From contig NZ_JACCFH010000001.1 in NCBI RefSeq assembly GCF_013410775.1, positions 1,302,001 through 1,366,000 on the forward strand: a stretch of DNA of 64,000 bases, read 5' to 3'. A program made the position numbers and the translations under genes. This stretch comes from Sphaerotilus montanus (GTDB lineage: Bacteria; Pseudomonadota; Gammaproteobacteria; Burkholderiales; Burkholderiaceae_C). Below, in pieces: positions 26,414 to 38,658 of the stretch. Position 1 is the stretch's first letter, and each line of letters begins with the position of its first letter. The notes under the pieces were generated by a model. It made no database searches. It worked only from the letters and a program-made list of their open reading frames with translations, and had not been told where the DNA came from.

Positions 26414-28975
<2,562 letters not shown>

Positions 28976-28989
28976 CGAGGGGGTCCGTC

Positions 28990-29721
28990 ATGGCCCCTCC
29001 TCTGATCATCGAAATCCTCGGCCGCACCGACCAGGGCATCACGCGGCCCTTCCGGTGTCTGGCTGACGACGGTCATCACTACTACGTCAAGAGCGTCGGT
29101 GCCCATTGGCGCTCCGTCGTGTGTGAGTGGATCGCTGGTCGGCTCGCCGAGGCACTCGGCCTGCCGATCGCGCCGTTTGCGCAAGTGGAACTCGACGAGG
29201 GGCTGGTGAAGGCCTATGGCGATCACGATCTGGCGCCAGGACTGGCATTCGGCTCCCGAGTAGCCACCTCTGTTCACGAATTCGAACCTTCACTGATACG
29301 GCACTGCCACGCAGACTTTCGCCGCGATCTGCTGGCCTTCGACTGGTGGGTTCGCAACGAGGATCGGCAACTGGGAGACACCGCGGGTCGCCCCAACTTG
29401 CTGTGGCAGAGCACGACGGCTCGACCCGTGGTGATTGACCACAACAACGCCTTCGATCGCCAGTTCGACGCTGCCAGCTTCCTCGATTGGCACATCTTCC
29501 GCGCCGAGTGGCCCACGATCGCCAGCGACCTGGTGCGGCAAGCCGAGTACGCGCAGCGGTTCACAGCCGTGGCCGCCCGCGCAGAAGAGTTCTGGCGTGA
29601 ACTGCCGCACAATTGGGTGTTCACGGAAGACGGTACGCCCCGGATCACCTTGCAGGAAATCCAGTCCGTGCTGCACCGTGCCGATCAGCCCGACTTCTGG
29701 CACAGCGCCCCTTCCTCCTGA
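28990..29721 (+). CDS. HipA-like protein kinase, copy 1
   Basis: A 243-residue protein of the small HipA-like kinase group that lacks the N-terminal HipA domain. Likely kinase residues are Lys34 (YYVKSVG), an FGSR segment (88-91), the catalytic loop FDWWVRNEDRQLGD (Asp125) with Asn136, and the DFG-equivalent VVIDHNNAFD (Asp150). A GAGGGGG ribosome binding site begins 3 nt after the gyrB stop. A DUF3037 gene follows after 10 bp and should be its functional partner. HipA kinases phosphorylate host proteins and cause growth arrest; whether this group does is unknown. No HipB-like DNA-binding antitoxin is present. Confidence 0.82.
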   Translation: MAPPLIIEILGRTDQGITRPFRCLADDGHHYYVKSVGAHWRSVVCEWIAGRLAEALGLPIAPFAQVELDEGLVKAYGDHDLAPGLAFGSRVATSVHEFEPSLIRHCHADFRRDLLAFDWWVRNEDRQLGDTAGRPNLLWQSTTARPVVIDHNNAFDRQFDAASFLDWHIFRAEWPTIASDLVRQAEYAQRFTAVAARAEEFWRELPHNWVFTEDGTPRITLQEIQSVLHRADQPDFWHSAPSS

Positions 29722-29731
29722 CCTGTCCACC

Positions 29732-30580
29732 ATGGCCCGCCACATCGCCCACTACACCCTCGTGCGCCTGCTGCCGCAGTCGGACTCGGGAGAGTTCGCG
29801 AACATGGGCGTGGTGGTGGCCTGTCCGGCGCTGGGCTTCTTCGATTTCCGGCTGATCACCCGCTACCGGCGCATCACGCAGTTCTTCGAGGAGTTCAACC
29901 GCGAGCTGTTCACCCAGGTGCGGCGCGAGGTGGAGGCTGAACTGGCGCATCTGCGGGACCACCTGCACCAGCGGCAATTCGCCAGCGGGTGCCGGGAAGA
30001 GGCGCTGGCGTTGCGGCTGGTGCAGGATCTCGTGCAGCCTCGGGAGACCATGGTCCGTTACGCGCCGCTGCGGGTGGCGATGACGGAGGATCCGCGGCAA
30101 TTGCTGGATCAGGTCTTCGCACGCTATGTGCAGCGCAGCAGCGAGGAGACCAAGAGCCGTCGGGAAGACGCGATGGTGCGGCTCGTGCGCGAGGCGCTGC
30201 AGCAGGACCGGCGCTTGAACGCATTGTTCCGCGCGGACGAGGTCGGTACGCCGGACTATCAGGTGCCGTTCCCGCTGGTCCACCGCCAGGATGGCCAGAC
30301 GCTGGCCGCCATCAAGCCGCTGGACCTGACGCAGCCCGACCCGCAGCAGATCTACGAACACGGTGGGCGCTGGGCGGAACGGTTGCGTCGCCTGAAGCGG
30401 CTGGGCGCCATGCCGGACCACGGTGTGCTGGTCACGACGGAGGCGCCGCCACCGGAGGACGAGCGGCGGCATCTGGCTTACCGCGACATCGTGGGGGAGT
30501 TGCGGGAACTCTCGGTGCAGGTCAGTGGGGTGGAGCAGGCGGGACAGATTCTGGCGTTTGCGCGGGGACAGATTCACTGA
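29732..30580 (+). CDS. DUF3037-family protein, copy 1
   Basis: A 282-residue soluble protein. The N-terminal region (about 1-120) carries the DUF3037 signature [23 protein letters not shown] with the conserved GE-x-x-N-x-G-V-V core at 20-29. The remainder is charged and helical and matches no fold I recognise. It is 10 bp behind the HipA-like gene. Families with this domain repeatedly occur beside HipA-like kinases, which suggests an antitoxin, adaptor or substrate role; that is inference. GC content is close to that of the host. Confidence 0.75.
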
Positions 30581-30581
30581 T

Positions 30582-30800
30582 CGAAAACGCTGTCGGCCGC
30601 CAGCGCTTCGAGGGCCTGGGCGAAATGAACCCCGAGCGGAAACCACGATGGACCCGAACGTGCGCCGCCTGCTGCGCGTGCAGATCGAGGATGCGGTCGA
30701 GGCGGGCAAGGTGTTCACGATGCTGATGGGGGATGAGGTGGAGCCTCGGCGGGACTTCATCGAGACCAATGCCTTGCGGGCAGCCAATATCTACGCTTGA
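30582..30800 (+). pseudogene. gyrB': Duplicate gyrB 3'-end fragment
   Basis: This stretch matches gyrB 28750-28975 with about 15 mismatches over 219 aligned bases (about 93% identity), including the ending [14 protein letters not shown]-stop against [15 protein letters not shown] 7-bp deletion after CCCGAGC (30637) breaks the frame. It begins 1 bp after the DUF3037 stop, so HipA-like/DUF3037 copy 1 lies exactly between two gyrB 3' ends. This looks like displacement of the native 3' end by an incoming segment that carried its own. AT-rich DNA without genes follows to 30933. Confidence 0.9.
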
Positions 30801-30933
30801 TTCATATCTAATTAAAAGAGAAGTAAATAGGCTCAGTTATATTGGACCCATTTACCTATCAGATAATACGATCTTGAAAATCCTCAATCGACTAGCTGCA
30901 CCTCTAAATTAAGCTTCGCGAGCTAGAGCAGCC

Positions 30934-31812
30934 TCATGCTCTAGCAGAAACCAGTGGTGTCTCGCTTATGGGATCAAGTAGCGTCGAAAGATGCAACGAC
31001 TTCGAGATAAAATCCGCCAGCCACTGTCTGTCGTTTGCGCTTTCCATGCTGACGACAACGCTCGCCTTGCGACTCAACATCGAGACGGCTGGCTTCATCG
31101 TCGAATAGTCATCAGCAGCTACGATAGCGATACGCTGACTACTCTTTTGAAGTTCATCCTGCGCAAGATCGAGCACCAGAGCCTTATGGCTAGCTTCGTT
31201 GCGAAGAGGCTTCGTGTAACTATTGTGCCCTCTGAGATCGAGCGTTTCGATCACATGGACGGCACCGTTCTTAAGAGCAAACTCCGCAAAAAGTTCTTCA
31301 GTTAAGCTCAGCGGATATCCGGATACAACCCGATTTTTGGATAAATCCTGCAGTTTCGAAGAATACAAGTGCTGAGTCCGAAGCCAAGCGGTGAGTTGCG
31401 CGTTCAAACCTGAACGGCGCGCACGCGACTTCACAATTGTGGCAACGTTGCGCGGCGGCATCACGAGGCGCTCAAGCAAGCGCTCGACCTGCACCTCAAG
31501 GTCTTCGGCATTCTCGCTAGTGATCGTCCCGCCCGTTTCAGAAAGCCGTAGCGGCGCCATGGCTTGCTTGAGCCACAGCCAACGCTCATCTGCACTGTCG
31601 AACCGTTGAATTGCCGCGAGCCACGAGTGCTGCCACTCTTCCAAGTTGACACGCGAGTAGTTAGGCATCAATGCGCTAAGCCTACTTGGAAGCATGCGAA
31701 GACGCAGATCCGGGCCAGCGTCGGTGTGAAGGACGATCCCGACATTCAAGACCTCCCCTCGCAGCCTGTCGGGCACGATCTGCAGGAGTGTGAAGGGAAT
31801 TTTTTCGCTCAT
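30934..31812 (-). CDS. DUF3037-family protein, copy 2
   Basis: A 292-residue protein, intact. The N-terminus IPFTLLQIVPDRLRGEVLNVGIVLH has the same GE-x-x-N-x-G-V/I-V core (residues 19-28) as copy 1, but overall similarity is low, so the two are old divergent relatives, not a recent duplication. Base composition is clearly lower in GC than the flanks, a sign of transfer. The ATG at 31812 follows the original stop of the HipA-like copy 2 by 7 bp once the IS element is removed, so it was the second gene of that operon and now lacks its promoter. Confidence 0.72.
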   Translation of the reverse strand: MSEKIPFTLLQIVPDRLRGEVLNVGIVLHTDAGPDLRLRMLPSRLSALMPNYSRVNLEEWQHSWLAAIQRFDSADERWLWLKQAMAPLRLSETGGTITSENAEDLEVQVERLLERLVMPPRNVATIVKSRARRSGLNAQLTAWLRTQHLYSSKLQDLSKNRVVSGYPLSLTEELFAEFALKNGAVHVIETLDLRGHNSYTKPLRNEASHKALVLDLAQDELQKSSQRIAIVAADDYSTMKPAVSMLSRKASVVVSMESANDRQWLADFISKSLHLSTLLDPISETPLVSARA

Positions 31813-31882
31813 GATCTGACTACACAAGCATGCCACAGTCCATCAGCCGCTGGTTGAACGCCGGCGACTCCCACCACTTGAC

Positions 31883-31910
31883 AATGGGGCACTTCTAGAA
31901 ACCGACCCTG
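31883..31910 (+). repeat. IS left end: AATG target duplication plus terminal inverted repeat
   Basis: AATG (31883-31886) precedes the left inverted repeat 31887-31910, which starts GGGCACTTCTAGAAACCG. It matches the right repeat at 23 of 24 positions. Confidence 0.9.
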
Positions 31911-33165
31911 ACCGCCGCCTGAGCCGCGCGCTGCGGCAAGATACCGCCCCATGATCACACCCCGCACCAAGCCATCGAGCTTCTTTCCTGAGGAGGCCGC
32001 GGACGACCTGTTCGTGGTGCAGCAGCGCAAGGCCAAGCTGGAGGGCTACGTACAGACGCTGGCGGCGATGGACGAACTGATCGACTTCGCAGCGATGGCC
32101 GCGGCGGTGGACAAGGCCTGCCCTCGCGCTGACCGCAGCAAGGGCGGACGCCCGCCGTACCCGACCGAGGCGCTGGTGCGCATGGTGTTCCTGCAAGGGC
32201 TGTACAACCTGTCGGACGAGCAGTGCGAGCACCAGGTGCTGGACAGGATGAGCTTCCAGCGGTTCTGCCGGCTGGACGGCGCGCTGAACATTCCGGACGC
32301 ACGCACGCTGTGGAACTTCCGGCAGCGGCTGGCCGAAGGCGGGCTGGGAGGCCGGGCGATTTTCGAGGCGTTGAGCCAGCAGTTGCAGCGGCACGGCTTC
32401 ATCCCGAGGGGCGGGCAGATCGTGGACGCCAGCATCGTGCAGGCGCCGATCACGCAGGCCAACGCCCGGGAGCGCGATGCGCTGAACAAGGGGGAGGCGC
32501 CCGAGGGCTGGAGCAAGAAGCGCCTGGCGCACACCGACCGGGACGCGCGCTGGACGCAAAAGCACGGCAAGTCGTACTACGGCTACAAGCTGCACGGCAA
32601 CGTGGACGCACGCTACAAGCTGATCCGCCAGATGAAGATCACGGCGGCCAACGCCGACGACGGACAGCAACTGCCCGACGTGCTGCAGGTGGCGAACACG
32701 CGCAAGCGGCTGCTGGCCGACCGGGGCTACGACAGCGCGGCCAACCGTCAGACGCTGCAGCAGCACGGACTGGCCGACGGCATCGCGCGTCGCGCCAAGC
32801 CAGGGCAGACGGCCAAGGTTCGACTCAAGCAGCGCAACAAGACGATCAACCGCACGCGGGCGCGGGTCGAGCACGTGTTCGCGGCGCTGAGCCAGCAGGG
32901 CGGCAAGTGCGTGCGGGCGATGACGCTGGCGCGCAATGCGCTGGCGATCACGCTGCAGTGCGCGGCCTACAACGCGCGCAGGCTGGTGTGGCTGGTCAAG
33001 AGCGCAGGTCCGTCCGCACAGCCCGCGTGAGGGGAAAAACCCCGTCGCGGGGCACCGCGGCGGCGGGGACAGGGGCTCGCCGCCGTCATCCACTGCTCGT
33101 CTGAGCTGGATTTGTGCAGGCTCAGACCAGGTTCAGGGCTGCAGGGCCGGTTTCTAGAAGTGCCC
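31887..33165 (+). mobile_element. IS5-family insertion sequence
   Basis: A complete 1279-bp element with 24-bp terminal inverted repeats (one mismatch), a single transposase gene and 4-bp AATG direct repeats at 31883-31886 and 33166-33169. It is GC-rich, unlike the AT-richer DNA around it. It interrupts the 3' end of HipA-like copy 2, adding Gly-His-Phe and a stop from its own inverted repeat, and separates that gene from DUF3037 copy 2. The intact ends and gene suggest a fairly recent, possibly active insertion. Confidence 0.95.
31951..33030 (+). CDS. IS5-family DDE transposase
   Basis: A 359-residue DDE transposase. The N-terminal domain (FFPEEAADDLFVVQQRKAKLEGYVQ, YPTEALVRMVFLQGLYNLSDEQ) leads into the RNase-H-like core with Asp in IVDASIVQAP (about 157), Asp in LLADRGYDS (about 256) and Glu in RARVEHVFAAL (about 307), followed by a conserved AYNARRL tail. 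All three catalytic residues are present and the frame is intact. Confidence 0.95.
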   Translation: MITPRTKPSSFFPEEAADDLFVVQQRKAKLEGYVQTLAAMDELIDFAAMAAAVDKACPRADRSKGGRPPYPTEALVRMVFLQGLYNLSDEQCEHQVLDRMSFQRFCRLDGALNIPDARTLWNFRQRLAEGGLGGRAIFEALSQQLQRHGFIPRGGQIVDASIVQAPITQANARERDALNKGEAPEGWSKKRLAHTDRDARWTQKHGKSYYGYKLHGNVDARYKLIRQMKITAANADDGQQLPDVLQVANTRKRLLADRGYDSAANRQTLQQHGLADGIARRAKPGQTAKVRLKQRNKTINRTRARVEHVFAALSQQGGKCVRAMTLARNALAITLQCAAYNARRLVWLVKSAGPSAQPA

Positions 33166-33169
33166 AATG
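33142..33169 (-). repeat. IS right end: terminal inverted repeat plus AATG duplication
   Basis: The right inverted repeat 33142-33165 reads GGGCACTTCTAGAAACCG inward from its outer end and is followed by the AATG target duplication at 33166-33169. Confidence 0.9.
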
Positions 33170-33831
33170 GCATTGATGCGCACAGCAGACAACCAAGCAC
33201 CTGGCATCGCCGTCAGCCATTCCTGAACCTCTCTCGAAGTGACGGTCGCAATGCTGCTGAGCGTCAAGGCTGCGTCGGTCGAACTCCACAAGCCGTGTTT
33301 TCTTAGCGTCATGATGTTCATCATGGTGGTCGTGTTGGATGGCATCGGCACAGGGTCAACGGGCCAACCGCGCATGAGAAGTCCCCGGGAGAAATCCATC
33401 GCAATCACAGTATGATCGCCGGCCAGCCTCTGAGAGCGGAACAGGAAGTTATTTAGGTGTCGATCGTCATTCGCCACAAACAGATCAAGGGCAAATATGC
33501 GACTAATTGCCGCAACTCCGCCCTGGAGCAGAGGTTCACGCTGTTCCGGGGGAATATCCGACCACTGGAATACTCCTCCTTCAAATCGAGAGCCGAAGTG
33601 TTCTTCGCTGCCATTGCGGAGAACTGCACACGGTGGCAATGCAATTTGGAGTCTGTAGCCGAGGTGGTAGCAAAACCACTCCGAAGCGGGCAAATCAGCA
33701 CCATCAGACTGTCGCTTAGTTGCGTACTCGAACCCATCACGACCAATGCTGACCACCTTTAGGTCGGCGGAACTAGGCAGCCCGCTAGTGATCTCGCTAG
33801 CCACGTCAACCGGAAAGAGTGACATCGTCAT
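33154..33831 (-). pseudogene. HipA-like protein kinase, copy 2, truncated by the IS element
   Basis: The first 222 residues are native. Lys39 (FEYATKR), FGSR (79-82), the catalytic loop ALDLFVANDDRHLNNFLF (Asp123, Asn128) and AMDFSRG (Asp146) parallel copy 1. The IS supplies the last three residues (GHF) and the stop. Joining 33166 to 31882 restores 20 further codons (VKWWESPAF...GMLV) and a stop, giving 242 residues against 243 in copy 1. The kinase core is intact, so the truncated product may still fold, but it has lost its helical tail and its link to DUF3037. GC content is low, consistent with transfer. Confidence 0.85.
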
Positions 33832-34069
33832 TTATTGAGGTCTCGATTTTATGACGCCACGGCTCCCTATGGTCTTTGCGCGGCAACAATTTTTTAGATT
33901 TTACTGTAGAAGTGTCTAGGAGCTGAGATCCGCTCTCGAACAAATGCATCGCGTCGCGCTCGATCTGTAGATCGCGGCCAGCACAAAAGTGTACCCAATA
34001 TGAAAACCAAGCAAGGCCATACCTACGATTTTTTTGTCGCAGCGTAGCAAGCACCTACCCAAGTTTCAG
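33832..34069. other. AT-rich spacer upstream of HipA-like copy 2
   Basis: This 238-bp stretch is markedly AT-richer than the host DNA. An 82-codon minus-strand frame (33806-34054) crosses it and overlaps the HipA-like start, but has no recognisable domain and no good ribosome binding site. A run of T residues near 34030-34036 marks the edge towards the helicase gene, where host-like GC resumes abruptly. Confidence 0.4.
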
Positions 34070-35995
34070 TCAGACTTGAGCAACGACAGGCGAATACTCC
34101 TCCCTGACGCCAGCCCGCTCGCCCAGCGCGAGCGCAACCTTCTCCACCGCCCCCGACTCCCCACAAGCCCCCAACACCAGCCGATACGTCGCCCGCGTCA
34201 TCGCCACATACAGCAACCGCCATTCCTCCTCCTCGCTGTGGTGCGCGTCCGGCACCGCCTGCAGCCCGACGATGGCGACGGTGTGGAACTCCAGCCCCTT
34301 GGAGGCGTGCAGCGTCGTGAGCTTGACGCTGTCCGGCTCCCACGTCCCCGCGCGCTGCAGGCGCTGGGTGCGGATGCCGCGCAGGTGCAGCGCCTTTTCC
34401 ACCGGGTCGAGCAGGTCATGCCGGCGCGCCAGGATGCCGATGTCGGCCGGTGACACGCCGTCCGTCAGCGCATCGACGAGGCGGTCGGCGACCAGTTCGG
34501 CCTCCTCGCGCGGCGTGCGTCCGCGCAGCAGTTCCGGCGCGGGGCCGCTGCGACCGGCGCCGAGCGGGGTCTGCTGGACGATGTCGCTGTCGCCCTCGCC
34601 CACCCCGTCCGGCTCGCCGCCGCGCAGCAACTGGCCGGCGGTCGCGGTGGCGAGCTTCAGCACCTCGGCCGTGTTCCGGTAGTTGACCTTCAGCACGCTC
34701 GTGCGCCCGCGCGCCTCGATGCCGACGCTGGCGAAGCTGAACTTGCGGCGCGGCTGGCGGTAGATCGACTGCGCGTCGTCGTAGAGCACCAGCAGCGAGT
34801 TCGTCGCCGGATCGACCAACTGGGGCGCCAGCCGCAGCCACGCATCCTCGAAATCGTGCGCCTCGTCGATCATCAGCGCCGCGTACTGCGCCCGCGGGAT
34901 GCGGCCATGCGCCACCGCCTCGACCACCCGGTCGGCCAGCGCGTCGTAGTCCGGCCGGAAGCCCTTCTTCGGGATGCCGAGCTGGTAGGTGTCGGCCATG
35001 TCGTAGCACCAGCCGTGGAAGGTCCGCACCTGCACCCGCTCGTCCAGCCCCCGCTGCCGCATCAGCGCGTCGATGCGCGCCGCCAGCGGCCGGTTGTAGC
35101 AAAGCACCAGGATCGGCCAGTCCGGCCGCGCCGCGGCGGCCAGCTGCTGGGCGCGGTAGACGAGGATCATCGTCTTGCCCGACCCGGCCACGCCGTGGAT
35201 GACCCGGTGCCCCTCGCCCATCGAGCGCGCGAGCTGCTCCTGCTGCAGGTCCATCACCAGCATCAGCGCCTCGCTCGGCGACGGCGCCACCGTGGCACCC
35301 GGCCCGCTCGCGTCGTCGTCGTCCAGCAGCGAGGCCTGCGTCTGCAGCCGGATCTCGGGGAAGAGGTGCCAGCGGATGCGGTCGCGCTGCGGCAGGGTCA
35401 GCGCCGTCTTCAGGCGGAATTCCACCGTGAACATGCCCCACAGCCGCGCCTGGAAAGCGGCGGGATCCAGCTCCTCGGCCAGATCCTCGCGGGTCAGCGT
35501 GTTGGCCGGCGGAAAGAACTCGTCCCAGCGCGGATCGGTGATGCGCTGGCGCTCGATGTTGGCGAACACCACGCCGCAGCCCCAGGGCACGACCAGACTG
35601 CCTTTGTGGCGCCCTTCGGTCTGGCACAGGCCAGGGTCGCGCTGCATCTGGTTGACCAGCTCGATCGCGTAGCCGCGCGCCTGCAGGCCGGGGTGGATCT
35701 TGCTCACCCGCCCCTGCCCGTTCGCCAGGTTCAGCTCGACATCGTGGCGCGAGACATGGTGCAGCGCGCCAGCCCGCCAGCCCTTGACCTCCAGCACCAG
35801 CAGGCCGCGGCCCGGATGCAGCACCACGAAGTCCGGCAAGCGGCCCTTGTTGCCCACGGGCACGTTGTGCCAGACGAGGTAGTCGTCCTCCAGACAGCGC
35901 TGAAGCTGCCGCAGCACGCGCCGCTCGGCGCCCCCGTCCTCCGTGTTGCGGCAACGCGCCGCGATGTTCTGGTATCCCTGCGGAAAGATGGCCAC
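34070..35995 (-). CDS. NERD-domain UvrD-type helicase
   Basis: A 641-residue fusion of an N-terminal NERD nuclease-related domain (about 20-130; DFVVLHPGRGLLVLEVKGW keeps the D...E-x-K pattern) with a superfamily 1 helicase. Walker A is GVAGSGKTMIL (about 270), motif II LMIDEAHDF, motif III LYDDAQSIYR, then LHASKGLEFHTVAIVGL and LLYVAMTRATYRLVL near the C-terminus. It probably processes DNA ends or foreign DNA; such proteins are frequent in defence islands. A GTG start at 35995 with GGGAG upstream is used. Fragments of a second copy occur at 36967-37137. Confidence 0.9.
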   Translation of the reverse strand: MAIFPQGYQNIAARCRNTEDGGAERRVLRQLQRCLEDDYLVWHNVPVGNKGRLPDFVVLHPGRGLLVLEVKGWRAGALHHVSRHDVELNLANGQGRVSKIHPGLQARGYAIELVNQMQRDPGLCQTEGRHKGSLVVPWGCGVVFANIERQRITDPRWDEFFPPANTLTREDLAEELDPAAFQARLWGMFTVEFRLKTALTLPQRDRIRWHLFPEIRLQTQASLLDDDDASGPGATVAPSPSEALMLVMDLQQEQLARSMGEGHRVIHGVAGSGKTMILVYRAQQLAAAARPDWPILVLCYNRPLAARIDALMRQRGLDERVQVRTFHGWCYDMADTYQLGIPKKGFRPDYDALADRVVEAVAHGRIPRAQYAALMIDEAHDFEDAWLRLAPQLVDPATNSLLVLYDDAQSIYRQPRRKFSFASVGIEARGRTSVLKVNYRNTAEVLKLATATAGQLLRGGEPDGVGEGDSDIVQQTPLGAGRSGPAPELLRGRTPREEAELVADRLVDALTDGVSPADIGILARRHDLLDPVEKALHLRGIRTQRLQRAGTWEPDSVKLTTLHASKGLEFHTVAIVGLQAVPDAHHSEEEEWRLLYVAMTRATYRLVLGACGESGAVEKVALALGERAGVREEYSPVVAQV

Positions 35996-36183
35996 GTCTG
36001 CACTCCCGAAGCGTGAATCGCTTTTTCTTGTTCAGGAGATCAGCAGACCATAGGGCACCCGGCGGGCCGGAGCCGTACCCAGCCTGGACGGCTGGAAATG
36101 ACAGATATTTCACGAACAAGCAACGAGCGGCCAGCGCTCGACACGATTGGCGCCCACCCCGGTTGTCCGATACGCTCGCGCCC

Positions 36184-36612
36184 ATGCCCTTCACCCTCGA
36201 CCTCTCCCCGCTGCGCCAGGCCCTGACTTCGCTGGAAGACAGCCTGCAAGTCGTCGCCGACGAGGCGTGGCTGCAGAACCAGTCGGCAGCCGTGCGCAAC
36301 ACGCTGTTCGCGGGCGTGATCCAGAACTTCGAGTTCGTCTACGAGCTGGGCATGAAGATGCTGCGCCGGCAGATCGAGGCCGAGTCGGCCACGCCGGGCG
36401 AGACGGACCAGCTCGGCTTCCGCGACCTGCTGCGCGTCGGGGCCGAGAAGGGGCTCATCGGCGATGTAGAAGCGTGGTTCCGCTACCGGCAGATGCGCGG
36501 CACCACGTCGCACACCTACGATCTGGCCAAGGCGCGGCAGGTCTACGAAGGTGTTCGACCGTTCCTGACCGATGCCCGTGCGCTGCTCAACGCGCTGGAG
36601 CGGCGGACATGA
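36184..36612 (+). CDS. HepT-like HEPN toxin (HI0074-type nucleotidyltransferase partner)
   Basis: A 142-residue all-helical HEPN protein. It carries R105-GTTS-H110-T-Y112, the RX4HXY motif in which Arg/His form the RNase site and the Tyr is the residue AMPylated by MntA-type antitoxins in characterised HepT/MntA pairs. It starts just before the nucleotidyltransferase gene and overlaps it by 4 nt (ATGA), the usual operon layout. In older annotation it would be a nucleotidyltransferase substrate-binding subunit. Confidence 0.85.
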   Translation: MPFTLDLSPLRQALTSLEDSLQVVADEAWLQNQSAAVRNTLFAGVIQNFEFVYELGMKMLRRQIEAESATPGETDQLGFRDLLRVGAEKGLIGDVEAWFRYRQMRGTTSHTYDLAKARQVYEGVRPFLTDARALLNALERRT

Positions 36613-36959
36613 ATCCCCGAGACACGGACGGGCTGGCGGCCCGGCTCGCAATCGAGCCGCGGCATCTGCAGATCGTCCGGAACGTGCTCTCCCGGCTCGT
36701 GCCGGACCGGGAGGTCTGGGCCTTCGGTTCCCGCGCGGGGGGCGGCGCCCACCCGCCTAAGCCTTGGTCGGATCTGGATCTGGCCGTGATCGGGCCGGCG
36801 CCGCTGTCGCTGGACGAGCAGGCGACGCTGGCTGAAGCCTTCTCGGAATCGGACCTGCCCTGGCGCGTCGATGTGGTGGACAGCGCGACGCTCAGCACAA
36901 CCTTCCGCGAGCGCCTCGCCGCTGAACACCTGCTGCTGCAAAAACCGTCAGCGCGTTGA
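36609..36959 (+). CDS. MntA-like minimal nucleotidyltransferase (antitoxin)
   Basis: A 116-residue minimal nucleotidyltransferase. The active site is VWAFGSRAGG (Gly40-Ser41) followed by PWSDLDL (Asp55, Asp57), with a third acidic residue likely in WRVDVVD. The spacing is GS-X13-DxD, three residues longer than the usual GS-X10-DxD because of a Pro-Pro-Lys insertion. MntA relatives neutralise HepT by adding AMP to its Tyr. The gene is translationally coupled to hepT. Confidence 0.85.
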   Translation: MNPRDTDGLAARLAIEPRHLQIVRNVLSRLVPDREVWAFGSRAGGGAHPPKPWSDLDLAVIGPAPLSLDEQATLAEAFSESDLPWRVDVVDSATLSTTFRERLAAEHLLLQKPSAR

Positions 36960-36966
36960 CACCCAA

Positions 36967-37165
36967 CAGGGTGCGCAGGTTCAGCGCCTTTTCCACCGGG
37001 TCGAGCAGGTCATGCCGGCGCGCCTGGAAGGCGGCCGGGTCCAGCGCCTCGGCCAGATCCTCGCGGGTCAGCGTGGTGGTCGGCGGGAAAAACTCGTCCC
37101 AGTGCGGACCGGTGATGCGCTGTCGCTCGATGTGGTGGATGGCACGACGCTCAGCGCGACATTGA
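36967..37165. pseudogene. Composite scar of helicase and MntA-like gene fragments
   Basis: Three fragments are joined end to end. 36967-37022 matches helicase DNA 34378-34434 (minus strand, RRHDLLDPVEKAL-LR). 37020-37137 matches helicase 35446-35567 (IERQRITGPHWDEFFPP, LTREDLAEALDPAAFQA). 37128-37163 matches the MntA-like gene at 36867-36902. The joints fall at short shared sequences, CGCGCC and CGCTCGATGT. The helicase pieces are about 1 kb apart in the intact gene, so a second copy of this locus was deleted and rearranged here. Confidence 0.8.
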
Positions 37166-37174
37166 GTGCCTGCC

Positions 37175-37218
37175 ATTTTTAGTGTAAAAATCAATTCGGG
37201 CACGCCAATCAGCATTGG
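37175..37218 (+). promoter_or_regulatory. AT-rich leader with two inverted repeats before the histidine kinase
   Basis: ATTTTT/AAAAAT (37175-37180 and 37186-37191) and CCAAT/ATTGG (37205-37209 and 37214-37218) lie 13-56 bp before the kinase start. The promoter or an operator for the two-gene signalling operon is probably here. No clear -35/-10 pair is identified. Confidence 0.3.
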
Positions 37219-37230
37219 ATAAAACTGGCC

Positions 37231-38658
37231 ATGGACCGATTTGACCCCCTCTGGTTGGCTACGGTACAGGCCGTGTTTAGCGCCGATTCGCCGGTCGGCA
37301 AAGCCGTGCTGGACCGTGGGCTCCGCTACGTGTTCATCAACAAGACCCTGGCCGCTTTCAATGGTTGCTCGATCGAGGACCACCTTGGCCACACCGTTGA
37401 AGAGATCCTGCCAGAGGCTTACCCGATATTGGCCCCATTGCTGCATGGCGTGCTGGAAGGCAGCGCACCCCACGCCGAGTTCAGAGTCAGCGTGGAAATG
37501 CCGCATGCTCCCGGTGCGCTCAGCGAATGGGAGGCCACTTACCTCCCGATCCCAATGGAAGACGGAACTGTCGGCGGGGTCTACGTCCAAGCCGTCAACC
37601 TGACGGCCAAGTTGCTGGCAGAGCAGGCGTTGGCCAACAGCGAAAAGCAGTTGCGCCGCGTCCTGGACAGCCTGTTCGCCTTCGTCGGGGTGATGTCACC
37701 CGACGGCACCCTGCTCGAAGCCAACCGGGCGCCGTTGAAGGCGGCCGGCATTGACGCGCAGGATGTCCTGGGCCGTCCTTTCTGGGAAACCTATTGGTGG
37801 AGCTATTCGCCCGAGATCCAGGACTGGATGCGACAGGCCTGTGTGCGGGCGGCACAGGGTCAGGTGGTGCGCAAGGATGTGACGGCGCGCATGGTGGACG
37901 ACACGCGCATGACGCTGGACTTCATGCTCGTCCCGATGCGGGACGACAACGACCGCATCACGCACCTGATTCCGTCTGCCATCGACATTTCCGACCGGCT
38001 GGCAGCCCAGCAGCGGACCGAGTCCGCGTTGCGGGAGCGAACCGTCCTGCTGCAGGAGGTTCATCACCGGGTCAAGAACAACCTTCAGATCATCGCCAGC
38101 CTGCTGAACCTGCAGGCCCGCAACGTGGCGCCTGAAGCCAGTCAGGCCCTGCAGGACAGCCAGAATCGCGTCGTGGCCATGGCACTGACCCACCAGCTTC
38201 TTTACGAGCGCAACGATTTCTCGACACTGGAACTGGGGCCCTATTTACGTCGGTTGATGGCCAGCCTGCGCGACGCACACGGGGAGATCCGACACCGTGT
38301 GGACCTTCGGGTGGATGCTCCGGACTCGGGATTGAGCATCGACCTGAATCAGGCGGTACCGGTCGCACTGGTGGTGAACGAACTGCTGATCAACGCGCTG
38401 AAGCACGGGTTTGGCGTCGACGGGCAAGGCGAAGTCGCCGTGCGCGCGGAATGGAGCGATCAACGCATCGCGGTCACCGTGGCGGATACCGGGAAAGGGC
38501 TGCCCGCAGGCTTCGACTTTCGCACCTTCTCGAGTCTGGGGCTGCGCCTGGTCACGTTGCTGACCGAGCAGCTGGGCGCCGAAATGCGCTGGCCGATGGC
38601 AGGCCAACCGGGCTCAGTCTTCACCTTGCTGCTGCCAACCGGAGTCAGGCCGTCATGA
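37231..38658 (+). CDS. PAS-PAS-HisKA_2 sensor histidine kinase
   Basis: A soluble 475-residue histidine kinase. It has two PAS domains (about 15-125, and 135-255 with VMSPDGTLLEANRAPL), a HisKA_2 dimerisation/phosphotransfer segment (LLQEVHHRVKNNLQIIASLLNLQAR, His about 275) and a HATPase domain (N box VVNELLINALKHGF, DTGKGLPAGF). No membrane helix is seen, so it senses a cytoplasmic signal. The next gene overlaps its stop by 4 nt and encodes a receiver-GGDEF-EAL protein, its likely phosphoacceptor. Confidence 0.92.
   Translation: MDRFDPLWLATVQAVFSADSPVGKAVLDRGLRYVFINKTLAAFNGCSIEDHLGHTVEEILPEAYPILAPLLHGVLEGSAPHAEFRVSVEMPHAPGALSEWEATYLPIPMEDGTVGGVYVQAVNLTAKLLAEQALANSEKQLRRVLDSLFAFVGVMSPDGTLLEANRAPLKAAGIDAQDVLGRPFWETYWWSYSPEIQDWMRQACVRAAQGQVVRKDVTARMVDDTRMTLDFMLVPMRDDNDRITHLIPSAIDISDRLAAQQRTESALRERTVLLQEVHHRVKNNLQIIASLLNLQARNVAPEASQALQDSQNRVVAMALTHQLLYERNDFSTLELGPYLRRLMASLRDAHGEIRHRVDLRVDAPDSGLSIDLNQAVPVALVVNELLINALKHGFGVDGQGEVAVRAEWSDQRIAVTVADTGKGLPAGFDFRTFSSLGLRLVTLLTEQLGAEMRWPMAGQPGSVFTLLLPTGVRPS

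Follow-up and report, generated by a model that had tools for sequence, protein, structure and literature searches.

A HipAD-type kinase/DUF3037 pair and a broken relative from another clade behind gyrB in Sphaerotilus montanus

Introduction

The closest described relatives of the genes studied here are two-gene modules in which a HipA-like kinase is accompanied by a DUF3037 protein and no HipB-like antitoxin is present; the papers on them are cited here from excerpts. DS-6 of DefensePredictor, renamed HipAD (PMC13092281, citing Brenes and Laub 2025), loses defence when a predicted catalytic residue of its kinase is changed, and the same source reports an AlphaFold3 prediction of DS-6B with DNA. 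In the Retron-Sda1 operon, deletion of the HipA kinase ended defence against Bas51 and deletion of DUF3037 was toxic, the authors taking the kinase as the toxin; the retron RNA and an active reverse transcriptase (RT) were dispensable, and HipA/DUF3037 is reported to act as a stand-alone defence pair (PMC12548924). DUF3037 is also mentioned in the eukaryotic proteins RST1 and Focadhesin (PMC6711988). Here we describe two modules of this kind, copy 1 and copy 2, which stand behind gyrB in a 64,000-nucleotide stretch of the 5.07-Mb genome of Sphaerotilus montanus (the window; G000:C1:1302001-1366000; Table 1).

An earlier note on this DNA had taken the modules for a candidate undescribed system arranged in tandem. 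Neither description holds: an undescribed system is ruled out by PDC-M66, which is in PADLOC-DB 2023, and by the published DS-6/HipAD (PMC13092281) and Retron-Sda1 (PMC12548924) pairs, and the two copies are convergent, copy 1 lying on the plus strand and copy 2 on the minus strand. Copy 1 and copy 2 are further pairs of the known HipAD-type system. The Retron-Sda1 operon contains the same two-gene module; unlike that operon, the window locus has no RT among the 8 open reading frames (ORFs) scanned and no Rfam match at 28000-38000, so that no retron association was found. HipBA and HipBST have the kinase fold in common with the window pairs and differ from copy 1, which has neither a HipB nor a HipS partner and places its toxin gene first. 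The gene order of HipBA differs from this toxin-first order.

Results

Both copies encode a HipA-like kinase and a DUF3037 protein

By profiles, fold and trees, copy 2 is a diverged relative of copy 1. Both copy 1 proteins match their Pfam families, HipA_2 (PF20613) and DUF3037 (PF11236), as well as the annotated HipA and HipD of Escherichia phage PhiR5_1 (Table 1). The copy 2 DUF3037 protein scores 32.5 bits against PF11236, where the cut-off is 22.6, and relatives of the copy 2 kinase on plasmids of Klebsiella (30.1 bits), Komagataeibacter (31.8 bits) and Rahnella (29.0 bits) are above the HipA_2 cut-off. All four window proteins match the PADLOC profiles PDC-M66A/B, the two proteins of copy 2 with expectation values (E) of 9.8e-5 and 4.4e-6. 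When the families of the two copies were aligned to each other with hhalign, the kinases matched at E 6.6e-12 and the DUF3037 proteins at 4.4e-7, compared with 0.41 for a control of kinase against DUF3037. No other DUF3037 match was found in the genome at E <= 0.001.

The kinases share parallel motifs, namely K34/K39, FGSR in both, NEDR/NDDR and GEFANMG/GEVLNVG. In an alignment of 30 kinases that includes both copies, the columns of copy 1 K34 and of copy 2 K39, E51, D116, N121, D123, R124 and N128 are invariant; N123, D125, R126 and D150 of copy 1 are invariant over 20 kinases. The structural model of the copy 2 kinase (predicted local distance difference test, pLDDT, 84.1; predicted template modelling score, pTM, 0.83) gave 44 PDB matches at E <= 0.001, headed by PI4K and including other eukaryotic kinases, HipA (3dnt, 3tpd), HipT (7vkb, 8ezs) and CtkA.

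The observation in the earlier note is borne out by these comparisons, and its interpretation in part. It had recognised two modules of one kind from the same motifs, and a check by profiles and structure of whether copy 2 falls into other families leaves it as a HipA-like kinase with a DUF3037 protein. The protein lengths of 243, 282 and 292 amino acids (aa) and the 10-bp gap between the same-strand genes of copy 1 are as it gave them; its 242 aa and 7-bp spacing for copy 2 depend on joining the flanks of an insertion sequence (IS). The copies differ in guanine-cytosine content, as it had said, by 9 to 14 points (63.7/67.6% in copy 1, 54.8/53.9% in copy 2). It was also right that copy 1 has no HipB partner, as there is no room for such a gene: the pair fits between gyrB, 14 bp away, and a gyrB relic, 1 bp away.

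DUF3037 genes are almost always adjoined by a HipA-like kinase

We surveyed the neighbourhoods of these families, a check that the earlier note had proposed, in 399 genomes of the order, source genome included. DUF3037 was matched 23 times in 21 genomes and HipA_2 31 times in 30 genomes. For 20 of the 21 DUF3037 matches outside the source genome, a HipA_2 gene lies directly upstream on the same strand; the unpaired match (G404) begins at a contig end. An in-frame stop interrupts two of the 20 kinases (G181, G105), and the other 18 have an open frame of more than 200 aa, the final part of one of the kinases surveyed (G227) aligning poorly. Among viral sequences, a search of IMG/VR with the DUF3037 alignment A1 yielded 175 relatives, of which the best 80 were kept; a kinase is directly upstream in 79 of these 80 loci, and the one locus without it (L101) is at the end of a contig. 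DUF3037 is thus almost always adjoined by a HipA-like kinase. The constant pairing supposed in the earlier note very nearly holds when viewed from the DUF3037 side (20/21; 79/80) and fails from the kinase side, where HipA_2 genes without DUF3037 occur (see Discussion).

Relatives of copy 2 show the same arrangement. Its DUF3037 protein, used as a query, matched 4 of 249 other genomes of the family sample, two of the matches having an in-frame stop; a kinase-like ORF is just upstream in all four, and three of the four fall in the copy 2 clade. The closer prophage group of copy 2 consists of 14 loci, 13 from IMG/VR and one from a Pantoea eucrina genome, and in 13 of them the kinase gene is present with a 4-nt overlap. 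No kinase was found at the fourteenth, the viral contig L190. By eye, an IS3-type element occupies about positions 2000-3000 of L190, in the kinase's place next to the DUF3037 gene. No relative was found among genome contigs when the copy 2 DUF3037 protein was the query; alignment A4, built from its relatives in Klebsiella and Rahnella, found one locus, that of Pantoea eucrina. The same protein had no match in phage records and three in plasmid records.

Short DUF3037 proteins were seen as well. Four of 130-131 aa, without the C-terminal half, stand beside HipA-like kinases (L033, L034, L036, L037), and another short one (L035) has 165 aa by the chosen start.

The two copies belong to different clades

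Trees were built from 72 pairs, after viral kinases had been thinned at 75% likeness and pairs lacking an open kinase frame had been removed. The trees of kinases and of DUF3037 proteins agree (Mantel r 0.746; none of 2000 permutations was as high, the top value being 0.23). Copy 2 falls in a 13-member clade that is identical in both trees (support 0.996 for kinases, 0.983 for DUF3037 proteins). Copy 1 and the PhiR5_1 HipA/HipD pair are found together in one large group of 47 kinases or 46 DUF3037 proteins (support 0.63/0.83). The members of the copy 2 clade, which is a separate one, lie in prophages and plasmids and keep the same gene order; no separate account of this clade was found in the excerpts of the literature on the HipA-like kinase/DUF3037 pair. 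Membership of different clades fits the separate arrival of the copies that the earlier note had suggested.

In PhiR5_1 the HipA/HipD pair is situated between cI and kil, and on a Klebsiella plasmid with phage genes a pair of the copy 2 clade has an S24-family gene on one side and a kil gene on the other. At least 33 of the 80 viral loci and at least 7 of the 14 copy-2-clade loci have a same-strand repressor-like gene upstream; these counts are lower bounds, obtained with four query proteins.

A gyrB relic separates the copies

On the plus strand, dnaA, dnaN and gyrB are followed by the copy 1 kinase and DUF3037 genes. Beyond them come a decayed second gyrB 3' end, a spacer of 37.6% guanine-cytosine content and then copy 2. 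Across 217 aligned columns the relic is 93.1% identical to the live gyrB tail, and it differs at four positions where all 18 aligned relatives match that tail. Because of its 7-nt deletion and these changes at conserved positions, it seems no longer to be under selection. A second full-length gyrB tail was not seen in the other 12 genomes of the genus, two of which could not show one at their contig ends: in G004 the contig stops within copy 1, and G005 has only a piece of gyrB tail at a contig end. The older and the newer tail were told apart from decay only, and no donor of the new gyrB 3' end was found. On the simplest reading, copy 1 seems to have entered at the gyrB stop on DNA that supplied a new gyrB 3' end, with the old tail left behind it, and copy 2 stood behind gyrB before copy 1 arrived. 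Our guess at the mechanism is that one junction formed by homologous recombination and the other by illegitimate joining; no integrase was found among the 8 window ORFs scanned.

Copy 2 no longer has its HipA_2 kinase as an intact gene, the gene being cut by an IS5-family element that has inverted repeats and is flanked by a 4-bp target duplication (AATG). The genome holds 18 full-length copies of this element, including the one in copy 2, and 7 are at 100%. Copy 2 is probably dead, because the element removes the last part of the kinase and separates the partner from the shared start. Across 28600-34200, promoter-like sites (2, against a shuffle mean of 1.0) and terminator-like sites (3, against 4.7) are near chance. 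One promoter-like site (33918-33889, minus strand) is in front of the copy 2 kinase, and none precedes the copy 1 kinase in this scanned stretch. For this reason, and because it begins 14 bp behind gyrB, copy 1 is likely to be transcribed with gyrB.

Table 1. Features at and downstream of gyrB in the window.
Feature	Position	Strand	Remarks
gyrB	26414..28975	+	copy 1 and copy 2 modules stand behind it
Copy 1 HipA-like kinase (toxin-like), 243 aa	28990..29721	+	start 14 bp past gyrB stop; PF20613 1.3e-74; PDC-M66A 2.9e-8; PhiR5_1 HipA 2.8e-27
Copy 1 DUF3037 protein (HipD-like antitoxin), 282 aa	29732..30580	+	PF11236 1.9e-21; PDC-M66B 2.1e-24; PhiR5_1 HipD 2.2e-29
gyrB 3' end relic, 219 bp	30582..30800	+	7-nt deletion; 93.1% identity with live gyrB tail
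Copy 2 DUF3037 protein (HipD-like), 292 aa	30934..31812	-	PF11236 1.1e-7, above cut-off; plasmid relatives in Klebsiella, Rahnella, Komagataeibacter
IS5-family element (transposase 31951-33030)	31887..33165	+	NF033581 2.5e-72; in 3' part of copy 2 kinase gene
Copy 2 HipA-like kinase, 5' piece, 666 bp, 222 codons	33166..33831	-	HipA_2 6.5e-4, under cut-off; gene broken by IS
NERD-UvrD helicase gene	34070-35995	-	PADLOC C3a187 E 3.8e-128
HI0074-like nucleotidyltransferase-binding (HEPN-type) gene and MntA-like nucleotidyltransferase gene	36175-36959	+	
Second NERD-UvrD gene, fragments	36960-37231		55-56 and 111-115 bp matches to intact gene of relatives

The C-terminal half of the DUF3037 protein may weakly resemble a nuclease fold

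The AlphaFold2 model of the copy 1 DUF3037 protein has a pLDDT of 90.6 and a pTM of 0.61, which leaves the relative placing of its halves less sure. When compared with the PDB, the model gave no match at E <= 0.001; the top ranks were XPF (E 1.4e-2, probability 0.99), BstEII, an R2 retrotransposon protein and Mus81-Eme1; Hef followed at rank 10, and a mannanase, KRAS and Rab proteins stand in the same list. Among viral models there were two matches at E <= 0.001, both to unnamed proteins, followed by a phage restriction endonuclease (1.3e-2) and ERCC4-domain proteins. Profiles searched against PDB sequences gave weak matches only. The C-terminal half of the model has the element order helix, three strands, helix, strand, which fits a PD-(D/E)XK-like fold, and it would weakly resemble that fold without the full motif. 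The place of (D/E)XK reads A-I-K196, and the lysine is not kept across the groups of alignment A1, as judged by eye; catalysis by this protein therefore appears unlikely. A DNA-binding role, which we infer, would agree with the AlphaFold3 prediction for DS-6B with DNA (excerpt of PMC13092281).

The region behind gyrB is a site of turnover in the genus

We surveyed the site in 13 genomes of the genus, mostly drafts, in seven of which only selected ORFs were scanned. In 6 of the 13, the gene that directly follows gyrB, in the same orientation, is of a toxin-antitoxin (TA) or defence type, and the region is a site of defence and TA turnover in the genus. Copy 1 is behind gyrB in the source genome and in G004, where it is 96.2% identical over 1557 bp, up to the contig end. 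G001 (L054 1089-2528) has a DUF3800 protein matching PDC-M04A and then an orphan, truncated, kinase-less DUF3037 gene of copy 1 type (94.9%). In G005 and G006 there are relatives, at about 84% DNA identity, of the HEPN-type gene of the window, followed by a nucleotidyltransferase gene; the placement in G005 relies on a 182-bp gyrB tail at a contig end, and the gyrB body of that genome was not found. G010 has a nucleotidyltransferase and HepT. The remaining genomes carry a sigma factor (G002), MFS and dioxygenase genes (G003), LysR and an unassigned ORF (G007), an unassigned ORF (G008), TerB and LysR (G009), NYN-OST-HTH and LysR (G011) and a transposase (G012).

Some of these modules are closer to those of the window than the core genes are. 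The dnaN-gyrB identity to G001, G006 and G010 is 85-86%, compared with 94.9% for the DUF3037 remnant of G001; the NERD-helicase gene is 95.6-97.3% identical in G005, G006 (97.3%) and G010 (95.6%), with a 78% relative in G012. The HEPN-type gene counts against this pattern, its roughly 84% being no closer than the core. In G004 vertical descent is possible, because the identities of core (93-94%) and module (96.2%) are close.

The final 170 bp of the DUF3037 gene of copy 1 are present on another contig of G005. The gyrB-adjacent region of that genome also holds a Septu PtuA/PtuB-like pair (L058 7538-9936, minus strand; 2.4e-49 and 1.5e-33). Of other genera, six were fetched and four scanned: right behind gyrB we found a type I restriction system in one (G032), a PDC-S09 gene in another (G019) and neither in G028 and G015. 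In Helicobacter, a restriction system directly downstream of gyrB is described in an excerpt of PMC4615327.

Discussion

The explanation that we favour, and in which we have considerable confidence, is that both modules are HipAD-type (PDC-M66/DS-6) TA defence pairs of the abortive kind, copy 1 being the later arrival and copy 2 probably dead. The first gene would encode a HipA-fold kinase and the second a DUF3037 protein (HipD) that binds and restrains it. Phage infection would free the kinase, which would then phosphorylate an essential host or phage factor and so bring about a growth stop, that is, abortive infection. Copy 1, which looks intact, would probably be expressed from the gyrB transcript. 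Copy 2 would have been acquired separately from another clade and then lost its function when the IS5 element cut its kinase, and copy 1 would have been inserted later between gyrB and copy 2, bringing the new gyrB 3' end. The families, pairing, fold, clades, gyrB relic and IS insertion come from this analysis, and the need for the kinase in defence and the toxicity of DUF3037 loss from the papers on relatives; the trigger, the target, transcription with gyrB, the order of arrival and the death of copy 2 are what we infer. An IS insertion in the toxin gene of copy 2 and an antitoxin-only remnant in G001 fit TA logic, as two anecdotes.

Several points weigh against this explanation. The truncated copy 2 kinase reaches 19.5 bits against HipA_2, under the cut-off of 27, and the copy 2 proteins cover the PDC-M66A/B profiles only in part. 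The copy 1 DUF3037 protein is only 27.9% identical to HipD of PhiR5_1, and neither of these two proteins gives a match to DUF1829, with which the published DS-6B is described (excerpt of PMC13092281). HipA_2 matches without DUF3037 number 10 of 31, five above and five below the family cut-off, one of the ten (G148) being near a contig end. Kinase toxicity, neutralisation by DUF3037 and phage defence are reported for relatives only, and would extend to the window pairs by analogy.

Other readings differ in what the pairs do or where they came from. They may be selfish addiction modules whose effect is to stabilise the region next to gyrB or the mobile DNA carrying them, with phage defence incidental. 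The presence of such pairs on plasmids and prophages, the stacking and turnover at the site and the toxicity of DUF3037 loss in a relative (PMC12548924) would all suit this view; published relatives nonetheless defend against phages in plating assays (PMC12548924, PMC13092281), and several neighbours at the site are defence-type genes, so that we regard it as a serious but rather unlikely account. Improbable, in our judgement, is that the DUF3037 protein is a nuclease, through its PD-(D/E)XK-like C-terminal half, which the kinase regulates without itself being the toxin. The Foldseek matches to the nuclease domains of XPF, Mus81 and Hef and to restriction enzymes, together with the order of helices and strands, are what speak for it. 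None of these PDB matches reaches E <= 0.001, however, and GTPases and other folds share the list; the A-I-K in place of the motif, with a lysine not kept in other groups by eye, and the DUF3037 group of about 130 aa that lacks the C-terminal half also argue against it, as does the relative in which DUF3037 loss is toxic and the authors take the kinase as toxin (PMC12548924).

Because both copies have the same domain pair in the same gene order at a single site, one might take them for the diverged products of a duplication, inside this genome, of one ancestor. Their clades and their outside relatives are different, their guanine-cytosine contents are 9 to 14 points apart and the gyrB relic separates them; on these grounds we rule out a local duplication as extremely improbable.

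A broader and quite tentative joint reading, which we think doubtful as a whole, is that the 3' end of gyrB serves as a docking site in the genus and family. Defence and TA modules would land in sense at the gyrB stop codon and ride on the transcription of an essential gene, and they would travel together with a substitute gyrB tail, by which gyrB stays whole as earlier tails and modules are displaced downstream; different HipAD clades would stack there, and the DUF3037 antitoxin would read DNA by a degenerate nuclease-fold domain.

The locus adds one intact-looking and one broken pair to the HipAD type. The system was already known, and it is the piling-up of modules behind gyrB that is mildly interesting. 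A second, deep clade that includes prophage members and is almost constantly paired makes specificity and cross-neutralisation between clades testable, and the gyrB-tail relic provides a layered record of defence modules gathering at one core gene.

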